Assembly: GCA_025928185.1 (NCBI GenBank)
Contig: JAICKA010000010.1
Location: 1-61,577, forward strand
Length of the DNA stretch: 61,577 nt
Reading direction: 5' to 3'
Source: Gemmatimonadaceae bacterium
GTDB taxonomy: Bacteria; Gemmatimonadota; Gemmatimonadetes; Gemmatimonadales; Gemmatimonadaceae
Part shown: positions 1,278-35,389 of the stretch, in pieces
Layout: every line of letters begins with the position of its first letter
Position numbering within the stretch: the first letter of the stretch is position 1
Position numbers and translations under genes: made by a program
Notes under the pieces: generated by a model
The model's input: the letters and a program-made list of their open reading frames with translations, nothing else
Databases searched by the model: none
What the model was told of the DNA's origin: nothing

Positions 1278-1900
1278 GCGTCGCCGTCGCCTCGCACCGC
1301 GGCTTCGAGTCGACGCAGCTCGTCGGGTGTCGCATCCACCGTCGGCGCAATGGCGGCGCCCGGCGCGGGATGTTCACCAGCTTTGCCCCACCGGCGAATC
1401 AGCCAGCCAACGACGACCGCGCCGACGGCCAACGCGACACCCGGCGCGAACCAGCCTACGAGATTGAATCCCGATTTGCGCGGCGACATCAGCACGCGCT
1501 CGCCATACGCGCCGACGAACGCATTGATGATCTCCTGCGCGCTGTAGCCGCCGTCGACCAGCGACATGACGTCGCGGTGCATCGCCGGCGAGACCTGGCA
1601 GGAAAAGTCGGTAGTGCGACACGTGAACACGTCGAGGGTGCACCCGCACTGACAGCGGATGCGCCGCTCGAGATCGTCGCGCTGGAGCGTCGTCATCGAT
1701 GGCTTGGCGCCCGGTTTCGGCGGCAATCGCACGGGCCGCGCGGCCATCTGGTTCATCGCGAACAGATTGGTCGTGTCGGTCACCGGCACGAGACTCGAAT
1801 CGTGCACGGGCCCCTGCTGCTGCGCGCCGAGGCGCGCGCCGAATACCACCGCGCCGGTTGCCGAGGCGAGGAGCGTCAGAAAGTCTCTGCGCGACGTCAT
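1274..1900 (-). CDS. ccmH: Cytochrome c maturation protein CcmH (Cys-rich variant)
   Basis: 208 residues. The start at 1900 overlaps the ccmF stop by four bases (ATGA). A twin-arginine type signal opens the protein (TSRRDFLTLLAS, residues 2-13). The CcmH core follows: a Cys motif RCQCGC (Cys83, 85, 87) with further Cys94 and Cys101, the helical YSAQEIINAFVGAYGERVL region and one membrane segment (about 147-170). CcmH normally reduces the haem-binding cysteines of apocytochrome c and has LRCxxC. The extra cysteines and the Tat-like signal are unusual compared with the proteobacterial family. Confidence 0.85.
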   Translation of the reverse strand: MTSRRDFLTLLASATGAVVFGARLGAQQQGPVHDSSLVPVTDTTNLFAMNQMAARPVRLPPKPGAKPSMTTLQRDDLERRIRCQCGCTLDVFTCRTTDFSCQVSPAMHRDVMSLVDGGYSAQEIINAFVGAYGERVLMSPRKSGFNLVGWFAPGVALAVGAVVVGWLIRRWGKAGEHPAPGAAIAPTVDATPDELRRLEAAVRGDGDA

Positions 1901-31914: not shown

Positions 31915-32503
31915 CGACGCCTGCCGGCGCTTCGGCCACCCAGACCTCGCCATCGCGCACGAGCTCCGTCAGATCCTCCGGCATGCCGACGTCGAGCGGC
32001 GCCAGCATCCGGCCGCGCGGCTGCAGCGCACGCCGCAGCGACGCGCGCATGGCGCTGCTCGCCGCGGCGTCCATCGCCACGGCATTTGCCGAGGCGCTCG
32101 CGAACGGCGCAACTTCAGCGAGCACGATCGAGATGCCGTCACCGGCTTCCACGCCTTCCGGTGGATTCACGAGCAGCAGTCGTGACGGCGAAAGTCCGCG
32201 AACGATCGTCGCGTGGGCACCCCATGCGCCGTGCAGCACCGCGATGGTACGCGGCTCGGTGAGCTCGAGCGCCGCAGCCAGCCGCATCGCGTCCTGGTCG
32301 GACGGATCGCGCCACGCCATTCGCGGCGCGTGTTCGCTGAAGTACACGATGCCCTCGCGCACCGGATATTCCGCCGAGCAGATCGGACAGCCGATCGTGC
32401 CGGTCATGATCTGACGGGCTTCCACGCGGTCCATTTGCGCGACGAGCCAGGTGTCCTCGTGCGGATTGGGACAGCGCAGCAGATCGACCAGCTCGATGAA
32501 CAT
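31877..32503 (-). CDS. Trm112-like zinc domain fused to a methyltransferase-like domain
   Basis: 208 residues. The first 55 are a Trm112-type zinc domain (LLRCPNPHED with Cys11 and His15; GCPICSAEYPVREGIVYF with Cys39 and Cys42). The rest (TIAVLHGAWGAHATIVRGLS, SRLLLVNPP, ALQPRGRMLAPLD) resembles a reduced Rossmann methyltransferase without a clear SAM-binding GxGxG. It is the third gene of the pterin-operon run, 7 bases after the SDR stop. Function unknown. Confidence 0.7.
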   Translation of the reverse strand: MFIELVDLLRCPNPHEDTWLVAQMDRVEARQIMTGTIGCPICSAEYPVREGIVYFSEHAPRMAWRDPSDQDAMRLAAALELTEPRTIAVLHGAWGAHATIVRGLSPSRLLLVNPPEGVEAGDGISIVLAEVAPFASASANAVAMDAAASSAMRASLRRALQPRGRMLAPLDVGMPEDLTELVRDGEVWVAEAPAGVVSPPIQPLRRRS

Positions 32504-32510
32504 CCGTCCG

Positions 32511-33236
32511 TCAGCTATGCGAGAGCCGCAGCTCGTCGATGTTGACCGCCGCCGGTTGCATCACCACGTAGCGCACGGCCTCGGCGACGGCGGACGCGGA
32601 CAGCATCTCGCGCCGCGGCGTGAATCCCGGACGCGTATCGGGGTCGATCTCGTCCCACAGCGCCGTATCGACCGGCCCGGGCGAAACGAGCGACGCACGC
32701 ACGCCGCTGCCGCGTAATTCCATGCGCAAGGTCTCGTGCATGGCGCGCGCGCCGAACTTGCTCGCGGCGTACGCCGCGTTCTCCGGGAACACGGCGCGAT
32801 CGGCAATCGACCCGATCGTCACGATGTGGCCGCTCGCCCGCGCGCGCATGTCGGCGAGGAACGCGCGCACGATGAGAAACGGCGCGACGAGATTCACGTC
32901 GAGCGCGCGTCGAAACGCGTCGGCGCTCGTCTGTTCGACCGGCGCGAGTTGAAAGACGCCCGCGCAATTGACGATCACGTCCGGCGAACCGGCAAAGGCA
33001 CCCCGCACCGTTCGCGCAGCCTGCTCGACCGCGTCCGCGTTTCCGACGTCGCACGGTACGGCGATCGCGCGCTCACCGATTTTCGCCGCCGCGGCGCGCA
33101 ATGCGCCTTCCGACCGCGCCAGCATCGCCACACGCATGCCCTCCGCCGCGAGCACGCGCGCCACCTCGAGGCCGATGCCGCGCGACGCGCCGGTCACCAG
33201 CGCGGCACGACCGCCGAGCTGCGGCGCCCCGGTCAC
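32511..33236 (-). CDS. SDR oxidoreductase, candidate sepiapterin reductase
   Basis: 241 residues from a GTG at 33236 that overlaps the pterin synthase stop (GTGA). Classical short-chain dehydrogenase: cofactor loop TGASRGIG (15-22), NADP-favouring Arg near the second strand, and catalytic Ser143, Tyr156 and Lys160 (YAASK). By family it is an NADP-dependent carbonyl reductase. Its coupling to 6-pyruvoyl-tetrahydropterin synthase makes sepiapterin reductase, the last step of tetrahydrobiopterin synthesis, a natural candidate. Many SDRs look alike, so this is inference. Confidence 0.85.
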   Translation of the reverse strand: MTGAPQLGGRAALVTGASRGIGLEVARVLAAEGMRVAMLARSEGALRAAAAKIGERAIAVPCDVGNADAVEQAARTVRGAFAGSPDVIVNCAGVFQLAPVEQTSADAFRRALDVNLVAPFLIVRAFLADMRARASGHIVTIGSIADRAVFPENAAYAASKFGARAMHETLRMELRGSGVRASLVSPGPVDTALWDEIDPDTRPGFTPRREMLSASAVAEAVRYVVMQPAAVNIDELRLSHS

Positions 33237-33646
33237 TTGCCGTCGTACTCCACGTAGTTGTTTGGCGTTTCCCAGAGCACCAGCCGCGTCAACCGCGCCG
33301 GCCGGATCGCCGGCTCGAGCACGCGCCACATTCCGACGACGATGTTCTCCGTCGTCGGGATCACACCGTGCATGAAGTCGACCTCGAGATTGAAATTGCG
33401 ATGATCGACCTTGTCGATCACCTCACGCTCGACGATGCCCTTCAACCGTCCGAGATCGATCACGTAGCCAGTGCGCTCCTCCACCGGACCGGTCACCGAC
33501 ACGTCCAGCGTGTAGTTGTGGCCGTGCCAGTTCGGGTTGTTGCACTTGCCGAAGGTGGCCGCGTTCTCCTCATCGGACAGCGCGGGATTGTGCACGCGGT
33601 GTGCGGCGTTGAAGTACAGCCGGCGAGTGATCGTGACCTGTGGCAT
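33233..33646 (-). CDS. 6-pyruvoyl-tetrahydropterin synthase / QueD family
   Basis: 137 residues. Zinc ligands His16, His41 and His43 and catalytic Cys35 are visible, in the form CNNPNWHGHNY. Five residues separate Cys from HGH, as in animal-type 6-pyruvoyl-tetrahydropterin synthase; E. coli QueD has three. The catalytic Asp/His (DKVDHRN) and Glu (PTTEN, WETPNNY) are present. It would convert dihydroneopterin triphosphate to 6-pyruvoyl-tetrahydropterin; a QueD role is the alternative. It follows a terminated leader. Confidence 0.88.
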   Translation of the reverse strand: MPQVTITRRLYFNAAHRVHNPALSDEENAATFGKCNNPNWHGHNYTLDVSVTGPVEERTGYVIDLGRLKGIVEREVIDKVDHRNFNLEVDFMHGVIPTTENIVVGMWRVLEPAIRPARLTRLVLWETPNNYVEYDGK

Positions 33647-33671
33647 GACGAACGATAGCCGGAGTGGCGGA

Positions 33672-33708
33672 CGAAAGAACGAGCCCCGTGGCGTGAACCA
33701 CGGGGCTC
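33672..33708 (-). terminator. Intrinsic terminator in front of the pterin synthase gene
   Basis: Arms 33681-33691 and 33698-33708 form a perfect 11-bp stem (GAGCCCCGTGG and its complement) with a 6-base loop. On the minus strand it is followed by GTTCTTTCG, a U-rich run. It ends 25 bases upstream of the ATG at 33646, so it terminates or attenuates the leader transcript. Confidence 0.78.
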
Positions 33709-33890
33709 GAAGATTCGGTCCGGAGAGGGTTTTGTGAAGCCCAGTCGAATAATGAGGTCCTCACCATGAACCTTCCGCCTTCCCCCGCACTGGGGGCATG
33801 ACGTCAGTGATGGATTATCGAACCCACTCGGTGGACTTGTTGGCTCAAAAACGGAGTTCTCCGAGCCGAGTGTTGCATCTGCTCTGTCGC
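33672..33890 (-). ncRNA. Structured leader or small RNA upstream of pterin operon
   Basis: No coding frame of note. A promoter-like pair lies just upstream and an intrinsic terminator ends it, giving a transcript of about 220 nt. It can form several nested helices: CACTCGG with CCGAGTG, CCCCC with GGGGG around AGTGC, and a CGGA-GAAC-TCCG hairpin followed by TTTTT. A GGGCTTC segment (33736-33742) could pair with the terminator's first arm. It fits no RNA family I recognise; 6S RNA size is similar but motifs do not match. Confidence 0.45.
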
Positions 33891-33896
33891 AAAGCA

Positions 33897-33924
33897 ATTT
33901 AAGGACCAGTCAGGAATGCGTCAA
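33897..33924 (-). promoter_or_regulatory. Probable promoter of the leader/pterin operon
   Basis: On the minus strand TTGACG (33924-33919) and TTAAAT (33902-33897) are 16 bases apart. This is one of the best sigma-70-like matches in the window and places a start near 33890. Confidence 0.6.
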
Positions 33925-33946
33925 TTCAAATTTCGGCGGACATCAC

Positions 33947-34114
33947 ATGGATCTCGGTCTCGGCATCGGCGTCGCGCTCATCGTCATCTGGGCCATCGTC
34001 GCCCTCGGCTTCAATGGGCCGGGATGGATTCACCTGCTGCTCACCGTCGGTGTGTTCATCGTCATCTGGCGCATCGTCGTGCGGGGCGACCGACGACATC
34101 CAGTTCCGAAGTGA
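33947..34114 (+). CDS. Lmo0937-type small membrane protein
   Basis: 55 residues, two membrane helices (GIGVALIVIWAIVALGF and HLLLTVGVFIVIWRIV) around a GPGWIH turn, and a basic tail. This matches the lmo0937 family of tiny membrane proteins, common and functionally undefined. It is divergent from the leader RNA promoter. A GGCGGA lies about 8 bases upstream of the ATG. Confidence 0.7.
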   Translation: MDLGLGIGVALIVIWAIVALGFNGPGWIHLLLTVGVFIVIWRIVVRGDRRHPVPK

Positions 34115-34156
34115 CGTCGTACCGCACGCGAGGGCGCGCGGTCGCGGCCGTCGCCG

Positions 34157-35389
34157 TCAGCCGCTGGTGAGCACGATCATCGCGATGCCCCAGCACAACG
34201 TGAGGATCGTGACCGGCACGCCGGCCTTGAGATAGTCGACGAATCCCAGCCGTTCGCCTTTCGCTTCCGCACGCTCGGCGACGATCAGATTCGCCATCGA
34301 GCCGAGCAGGGTGAGGTTGCCGGCGAACGTCGAGCTCATTGCCATCACCAGCCAGATGAAGTGTGGCGCCGCGAGCGTGGGCACGACCGGCAGCCACAGG
34401 ATCACCGCGGGAACGTTCGACACGAGATTCGACAGCGCGGTCATCGCGCCCGACGTGACGAGCGCATCGTGCAGCGGTGCTCCGCGCAGCGCCGCGGCCG
34501 CCACCGAGGTGAGCGAGGCGACGACCGGCAGATCGCGTGCACCGCGCATGACGACGAACAGCGCGGCGAAGAACACGAGCAGCGGCCAGTCCACGAGGCG
34601 AAAGGCAATCGCCGGATCGCGCCGCGCGATCAGCAACAGTACCGCCGCCGCGGCGATTGCCACGAGCGGCAGTGAAAGGCCGGCGAGCCAGCAAGCGAGC
34701 GCGCCGGCGAAGACGAGCGTCGAACGGCCGACGAGTCCGCGATCGAATGGAGACTCCGGCGCGGCGGCATGGCGTGCCATCGGCACGCGCAGCTGGCGGC
34801 GAAACACGACGCGCAGCACGCCGAGCACGATTGCCAGGCCGCCGAGCGATGGCAGCACGAGCGCCGCGACGAATTGCCGAAAGGTCAGGCCACTCGCCAC
34901 GGCAATGAGCATATTCTGAGGATTGCCCGTCGGCGTCATCGCGCTGCCGACGTTCGCGCTCAGCGCAATGGCGAGCAGAAAAGGCAGCGTGTCGAGCGCG
35001 AGCGGCCGAAGCACCGCGATCATGAGCGGCGTCAACATCAGACAAACCGTGTCGTTGACGAAGAACGCCGACAGCACGCCGCTCGCGATCACCACCGCGG
35101 TCAGCAGTGCCGCGGGCGACGTCGCGCGCGCCACGATGTGCCGCGCCGTCCACTCGAAGAACCCTCCGGCCTCGAGATATCCGGTGATCACGAGCACGCC
35201 GAGCAGAAAGACGATGACGTTCAGATCGATCGCGGCGAGCGCATCACCGAACGGCAGTCGTCCAACCGTCACCATCGCCACGGCGCCTGCGAGCGCCGCC
35301 GCGGGGCGATTGAGCCGCAGGTACGGCACCCGCGGAAACGCGATCAGCAGGTAGGTGACGACGACGATGACGAGCCGCGCCGTCGCCAC
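34157..35389 (-). CDS. SLC13/ArsB/NhaD-type ion transporter
   Basis: 410 residues, about 11 membrane helices. Family-like features are FFVNDTVCLMLTP and SANVGSAMTPTGNPQNMLI, repeated in the second half by SNVPAVILWLP and FAGNLTLLGSMANLI, the usual inverted-repeat signature. Members carry Na+/H+, arsenite, or dicarboxylate. No ars genes are nearby, so the substrate is open. It follows the lipoprotein gene by 6 bases. Confidence 0.85.
   Translation of the reverse strand: MATARLVIVVVTYLLIAFPRVPYLRLNRPAAALAGAVAMVTVGRLPFGDALAAIDLNVIVFLLGVLVITGYLEAGGFFEWTARHIVARATSPAALLTAVVIASGVLSAFFVNDTVCLMLTPLMIAVLRPLALDTLPFLLAIALSANVGSAMTPTGNPQNMLIAVASGLTFRQFVAALVLPSLGGLAIVLGVLRVVFRRQLRVPMARHAAAPESPFDRGLVGRSTLVFAGALACWLAGLSLPLVAIAAAAVLLLIARRDPAIAFRLVDWPLLVFFAALFVVMRGARDLPVVASLTSVAAAALRGAPLHDALVTSGAMTALSNLVSNVPAVILWLPVVPTLAAPHFIWLVMAMSSTFAGNLTLLGSMANLIVAERAEAKGERLGFVDYLKAGVPVTILTLCWGIAMIVLTSG

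Follow-up and report, generated by a model that had tools for sequence, protein, structure and literature searches.

A structured non-coding stretch lies directly upstream of a 6-pyruvoyl tetrahydropterin synthase family (PTPS) gene in a Gemmatimonadaceae bacterium. It is very probably a separate, divergent 6S RNA gene (ssrS) with its own promoter and terminator, and not a switch of the pterin genes. The window is the whole stretch of DNA analysed, 61,577 nucleotides long (GenBank assembly GCA_025928185.1, contig JAICKA010000010.1). The homology, structure, distribution, promoter and terminator signals and syntenic position behind this assignment are all established at the level of sequence. 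6S RNA is a global transcription regulator reported from nearly all bacteria.

The preliminary description of this DNA had offered an attenuator or riboswitch and, alternatively, an independent small RNA. The latter held and can now be named as 6S RNA, and the former was not supported. The statement that no described family was recognisable also had to give way to 6S RNA, and it is understandable because Rfam scores the window copy far below its cut-off. A literature search, outside the scope of which lay the main 6S survey (Wehner et al. 2014), returned no paper in which 6S RNA is mentioned along with Gemmatimonadetes, Gemmatimonas or Gemmatimonadota.

The 6S RNA locus in the window

On the minus strand, the elements described earlier were confirmed: a promoter, some 220 nt of non-coding DNA and a terminator, all before the PTPS gene. 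Two covariance models of the RNA were used, R1 from 24 relatives, including the window copy, and R2 from 95 sequences, all from Gemmatimonadota. The features of the locus are as follows.

33896-33924, minus strand: promoter of the RNA by promoter scan (TTGACG 33924-33919, 17-nt spacer, TAAATT 33901-33896)
33705-33877, minus strand: 6S RNA body matched by R1 (159.1 bits) and R2 (132.6 bits), the window copy itself being among the sequences of both models
33858-33870, minus strand: closing stem P1, 5' strand CTCGGCTCGGAGA, supported by covariation and permutation
33842-33852, minus strand: helix P2, 5' strand GTTTTTGAGCC, supported by covariation, with TGAGCC common to E. coli ssrS
33839-33852, minus strand: predicted pRNA template by comparison with E. 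coli ssrS (pRNA 5'-GUUGGCUCAAAAAC, first template base C at 33839)
33826-33841, minus strand: central bubble, 5' strand AACAAGTCCACCGAGT
33832-33838, minus strand: possible collapse helix, 5' side AAGTCCA (partner TGGGCTT, 33743-33737)
33755-33825, minus strand: apical arm with four further modelled helices (3 to 6) and a CCCC/GGGG tip
33742-33754, minus strand: central bubble, 3' strand CATTATTCGACTG
33737-33743, minus strand: possible collapse helix, 3' side TGGGCTT (partner AAGTCCA)
33729-33741, minus strand: helix P2, 3' strand GGCTTCACAAAAC, supported by covariation, containing most of GGGCTTC
33715-33726, minus strand: closing stem P1, 3' strand TCTCCGGACCGA, supported by covariation and permutation
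33673-33709, minus strand: intrinsic terminator of the RNA, from a scan and from terminators in relatives
33233-33646, minus strand: PTPS gene (PF01242, E 2.2e-32), the downstream neighbour, outside the RNA

The RNA promoter was the sole promoter-like site that the scan found in 32500-35000 (mean of 0.2 in shuffles). Its −10 element, TAAATT, lies one base off the TTAAAT first proposed, and transcription would be expected to start near 33889. The terminator hairpin (33709-33680, minus strand) reads CGAGCCCCGTGG-TTCACG-CCACGGGGCTCG; the scan gave it 13 pairs, compared with the 11 bp noted before. A T-rich run, TTCTTT (33679-33674), follows the hairpin, and 27 nt separate it from the PTPS ATG at 33646. 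Taken by itself, the terminator scan at this place was not above chance (1 hit against a shuffle mean of 1.3). Folding of the 221 nt spanning 33890-33670 gave −90.2 kcal/mol (z = −3.8), a value equalled by none of 200 shuffles.

The same signals recurred in relatives, where short or cut-off bodies, duplicate RNAs and two loci (L160 and L167) were left out of the counts. Of 149 distinct loci, 87 had a promoter of the form TTGA[CTA]-N17-20-TANNNT ahead of the RNA, where shuffles would give 1.0 and the reverse strand gave 0. Of 151 loci, 113 had a hairpin and T run behind it (14.4 expected). These signals in relatives point to a free-standing gene with its own promoter.

Two further observations concern the surroundings. 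An SDR gene comes directly after the PTPS gene in the window (33257-33233); in locus L032 the two are separated by folE, which encodes GTP cyclohydrolase I. A small divergent open reading frame (33947-34114, plus strand) encodes a 55-aa membrane-like peptide (MDLGLGIGVALIVIWAIVALGFNGPGW...) that had no Pfam match, and its relatives were present upstream of the RNA at most loci of the window's family.

Structure of the RNA

The modelled fold is the rod known from E. coli ssrS and RF00013, with a closing stem, P2, a large central bubble and an apical arm. All 10 modelled pairs of P1 showed two-sided changes across relatives. In an alignment-free duplex test, P1 strands paired with their own partner at a mean of −23.2 kcal/mol, compared with −17.6 kcal/mol for a relative's partner, and the own-partner sum was reached by 0 of 10,000 permutations (27 sequences; kinship ignored).

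Unguided RNAalifold on the MAFFT alignment A1 yielded neither P1 nor P2 and preferred an alternative helix. The closing stem is misplaced in A1 because the length of the P1-P2 spacer varies; P1 and P2 were missed because this stem is out of register and the alternative helix shares its 3' strand. Therefore, the duplex permutation and model-fitted alignments were used. Alignment A2 (99 sources, 93 distinct rows) showed two-sided changes at 22 of 38 pairs with 94.4% of cells paired; alignment A3 (95 sources and rows, without the divergent type-B copies and those of families f10 and f11) showed them at 33 of 38 pairs with 91.9% of cells paired. Both were fitted to a P1/P2 structure supplied by the analysts, which biases them in favour of that structure. 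This concern is reduced by the permutation and by the controls on A3, in which 78.1% of cells were paired after shuffling and at most 56.7% when partners were slid.

For the 6S RNAs of B. subtilis and Aquifex, published work infers a "central bubble collapse helix" (PMC8876501). As in B. subtilis 6S-1, a helix between the distal 5' bubble strand and the P2 3' strand would be possible in the window RNA (PMC8876501). In contrast to 6S-1, the family of the window showed no excess of such pairing over shuffled controls (0 of 30 sequences at 0.05). Two other groups supported it, as AAGTCC/GGGCTT or GAAGCC/GGCTTC (16 of 35 and 16 of 30 sequences).

Distribution across Gemmatimonadota

A DNA search with the 261-nt window stretch matched 26 of 40 genomes, including the window's own, and the best-kept part was the core at about 33851-33721. 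Two of the loci found (L027 and L029) lacked the bubble/P2 filter motif and were left out of the alignments. Scanning the GTDB collection with a motif pattern yielded 100 stretches, of which 97 have a Gemmatimonad- title. The other three were titled "unidentified bacterium" (L052), "bacterium" (L054) and Candidatus Kuenenia stuttgartiensis (L117). The last, a contig of a MAG labelled Kuenenia that bears the Gemmatimonadota RNA motif, probably comes from a mislabelled or mixed MAG. Contigs without a family code were grouped by eye from title and motif; the totals do not depend on this grouping.

Across a sample of 298 genomes from the phylum, most of the relatives being draft genomes, R1 matched 278 (240 of the 256 of good quality) and R2 matched 286 (245 of 256), with two R2 matches in 9 of the 286; many source sequences of both models stem from these same 298 genomes. 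The RNA is thus near-universal and usually single-copy in the sample, as expected of a 6S RNA.

Seven divergent copies, termed type B (L021, L023, L028, L166, L182, L185 and L247), have a 5' bubble strand with a GAAGCC-type segment and do not adjoin pterin genes. Two genomes (G002 and G235) contain two RNA copies. The phylum may therefore hold paralogues like 6S-1 and 6S-2. Separately, inverted repeats in L015 (1700-1951) that lie by the RNA matched several eukaryotic Rfam families below the cut-offs, likely a low-complexity artefact.

Relationship to known 6S RNAs

At curated cut-offs, no Rfam family matched the whole window. At a permissive setting, the Rfam 6S model (RF00013) aligned along 33851-33731 with 15.9 bits (E 0.43), far from its gathering score of 46.4 bits, and the whole-genome 6S search reported no match for genome G000. 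In the first 40 genomes, this model gave no place above the cut-off and 12 weak places. Nine of these were at loci that the DNA search had also found; the other 3 were not and had E-values of 3.6 to 6.4. The same loose setting also produced a match in an archaeal control genome; together with the 3 stray places, this means that weak Rfam matches alone prove little. Matches to RAGATH-25, sX12, sodF, ClpQY and snR75 in 33600-34000 (E 0.12 to 6.6) were far below their cut-offs and were rejected as chance.

Over all 298 genomes, the Rfam 6S model found 26 places. Twenty-four coincided with an R1 match on the same strand, and the 25th (L167) coincided with an R2 match. The model scored above its cut-off in three genomes, at L160, L161 and L162. 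L161 (Rfam 56.6 bits, R1 60.4 bits) and L162 (Rfam 53.3 bits, R1 36.7 bits) were recognised by both models and thereby link the window RNA to curated 6S RNA. The 26th place, L160 (G300:C266), looked canonical (62.5 bits by Rfam) and had neither an R1 nor an R2 match. It lies on a short contig of G300, a genome whose own divergent RNA sits on another contig; L160 is a probable contaminant and was left out of all counts.

Recognition also worked in the opposite direction, from the Gemmatimonadota model to a proven 6S RNA. The best match of R2 in the E. coli locus spanned 1988-2162, its ends within 4 nt of the annotated ssrS (1984-2166), and scored a modest 18.7 bits (E 0.0065, a rough value). 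The next best match in that locus had 7.8 bits, and what looked like noise in the search scored up to 13.8 bits. Moreover, the TGAGCCGATA of E. coli ssrS recurs in those relatives that carry GATA at the predicted pRNA start.

A related possibility is an RNA like Ms1 of Actinobacteria, which is structurally related to 6S RNA and associated with RNA polymerase but binds the core enzyme without the primary sigma factor (PMC9130861). A binding partner is not readable from sequence, through which the Gemmatimonadota RNA is known here. However, the two-way model match with 6S RNA, the position behind zapA described below and the common TGAGCCGATA make a core-binding RNA of the Ms1 kind highly improbable, and assignment to 6S RNA is preferred.

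Gene neighbourhood: zapA and pterin genes

In E. coli, the gene order is zapA-ssrS-fau. The position after zapA was shared by deep lineages of Gemmatimonadota (families f8, f10 and f11), where zapA precedes the RNA by 38 to 140 nt in L161, L162, L163, L167 and L215. In L206, a member of f8, the RNA as modelled begins with 99 nt (1574-1672, minus strand) that it shares with the 3' end of zapA. In all six of these loci, pheT precedes zapA. Downstream of the RNA, RNase Y was found in L163, L167 and L215, and ymdB was close in L162 and L206 and 1.2 kb off in L161. Pfam supported zapA in L163 and L206, ymdB in L162 and L206, and RNase Y in L163; pheT in L206 was separately supported, and the remaining neighbour calls come from tblastn only. 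These six loci had no pterin gene downstream, and the window itself has no adjoining zapA. Synteny of 6S RNA with zapA and a folate gene is frequent and not universal, and it was recovered here through zapA in the six loci.

Unlike E. coli, where fau follows, most Gemmatimonadota loci have PTPS or folE downstream of the RNA. Loci with less than 500 nt downstream, short or cut-off bodies and duplicates were left out of the following counts, and distances were measured to tblastn matches, not to annotated starts. A PTPS match was found at most 400 nt downstream in 96 of the 133 loci with room, namely 51 of 64 (f1 and named relatives), 23 of 39 (mainly f2 and f3) and 22 of 30 (f4-f9). PTPS or folE on the same strand occurred within this distance in 110 of 133 (54, 32 and 24 by group), including loci with folE after the RNA and no detected PTPS (L009, L011 and L099). 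In a further 15 loci, the nearest PTPS or folE lay 0.6 to 1.7 kb downstream, and at 8 of 133 neither was found in the flank examined. The same was true of 6 of 6 type-B copies and 4 of 4 loci of f10 and f11. In L239, the model end and the PTPS match lie only 13 nt apart. In L057, L061 and L220, the longest mechanical ORF between the RNA and the pterin gene lies on the opposite strand.

Riboswitches of the THF, THF-II and preQ1 classes occur before folate or queuosine genes, and the window resembles them in having a structured leader and a terminator before a pterin-type gene. In such a reading, the leader would act in cis on the pterin operon as an attenuator or riboswitch, sensing a pterin or GTP and using the GGGCTTC segment to disrupt the terminator. 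The proximity of PTPS or folE at most loci and the terminator usually lying between the RNA and the pterin gene favour such an arrangement. The proposed pairing of GGGCTTC with the terminator arm is available in the window and, among relatives, only in part: GGGCUUC can pair over at least 6 bases with the 5' arm in 49 of 113 loci, compared with about 10% for shuffled arms, and it did so in 30 of 80 near hairpins vs 2 of 19 distant ones, which are few cases. However, the 3' arm, used as the control, reaches such pairing in still more loci (57 of 113), and GGGCTTC belongs to the 3' strand of P2. In addition, the RNA is not restricted to positions upstream of the genes it would control. It is kept behind zapA or elsewhere without a pterin gene in the flank and, in the 15 loci with a wide gap, at a distance from that gene. 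No riboswitch, whether of the THF, THF-II or preQ1 class or of another, was among the 6 Rfam matches obtained for 33600-34000 with E up to 10. Considering also the homology to 6S RNA, a pterin switch is very improbable, and the earlier proposal to this effect was not upheld.

The 6S RNA could still be coupled to the pterin operon in cis if part of its transcripts read through the terminator. This is compatible with a 6S RNA and seems rather unlikely on balance. Families f1-f9 retain the adjacency, whether PTPS or folE heads the operon, and the short gap in L239 fits such coupling. Similarly, ssrS of E. coli precedes fau, a folate gene, and the folate gene ygfA adjoins the 6S gene in alpha- and gamma-proteobacteria and some other groups (PMC9130861). 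On the other hand, read-through is opposed by the frequent terminators and by the other DNA between RNA and pterin gene in 15 loci. A TANNNT box ending 9 nt before PTPS in 11 of 96 starts suggests a separate PTPS promoter in some lineages. An RNA acting purely in trans would not need so close a linkage to pterin genes. The linkage would be explained by a change of neighbourhood, from zapA to pterin genes, that later lineages inherited; given how tight it is, a functional tie between RNA and pterin operon is possible.

The predicted pRNA and its alternating start

The pRNA of E. coli ssrS starts at U44 (PMC8876501). The reported pRNAs begin with 5'-AUCGGCUCAGGGGACU in E. coli and 5'-GUUCGGUCAAAACUA for 6S-1 of B. 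subtilis (PMC12005410). The state at the predicted pRNA start (window region 33839-33841) was readable in 153 of 156 distinct RNAs (all but L040, L213 and L228) and was AACA in 86, GATA in 49 and another in 18. L167 and L248 were left out, the latter being unconvincing as the same RNA, as were duplicate, short or cut-off RNAs in the motif and tree counts. The predicted pRNA would begin with 5'-GUUGGCUC in the AACA type and 5'-AUCGGCUC in the GATA type. The window belongs to the AACA type, whose predicted GUU-started pRNA with an A run resembles 5'-GUUCGGUCAAAACUA of B. subtilis 6S-1 (PMC12005410). For GATA types, the predicted pRNA is 5'-AUCGGCUCA, which matches the E. coli pRNA over its first nine letters. 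The alternation thus suggests GTP-started and ATP-started pRNAs, respectively.

The first and third letters of the motif were coupled (A..C 91, G..T 49, G..C 9 and A..T 1; Fisher p 5e-29, kinship ignored). At least 13 to 16 changes per position were counted on two trees, one of the RNA and one of PTPS, the latter without short matches or matches with stops or X. On well supported branches, the RNA tree held 6 change pairs, 5.3 of which on average went the same way (median sign-test p 0.06), and the PTPS tree held 4, with 3.9 going the same way (median sign-test p 0.125). With so few independent pairs, the coupled toggle is a lead that falls short of significance. The best mutual information of the toggle with other columns was 0.33 bits in A2 and 0.27 bits in A3. 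Different states were found even within a genus (L001-L004 vs L005).

If 6S RNA has switched repeatedly between AUC (ATP, as in E. coli) and GUU (GTP, as in Bacillus) starts and its gene has become the head of the pterin operon, 6S release and pterin supply might share a nucleotide pool, because the first step of the operon, GTP cyclohydrolase, consumes GTP. We regard this idea as speculative and rather doubtful.

Proposed function and implications

To RNA polymerase carrying the primary sigma factor, 6S RNA looks like an open promoter; the enzyme binds it and lets it go when it copies a short pRNA from the bubble and P2 (PMC8876501). By analogy, ssrS in the window would be transcribed from the promoter near 33924-33896 and end at its own terminator, giving a rod-shaped RNA with a core of about 170 nt. 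By homology, this RNA would act as an open-promoter mimic that occupies the RNA polymerase/primary sigma holoenzyme as growth slows. With the bubble and the P2 5' strand as template, the polymerase would then make the short pRNA, predicted as 5'-GUUGGCUCAAAAAC; opening of P2 would let the RNA refold and the enzyme be released. We infer expression, polymerase binding, inhibition, pRNA synthesis and release in this scheme from established 6S biology.

Rfam-based annotation likely misses the 6S gene of Gemmatimonadota or lets it pass for a riboswitch. The phylum holds many natural variants of the possible collapse helix, and its natural variants of the pRNA start make it testable whether the initiating nucleotide tunes 6S release. 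It also becomes testable whether the neighbourhood of 6S RNA and folate or pterin genes, as in E. coli, is more than inherited order.
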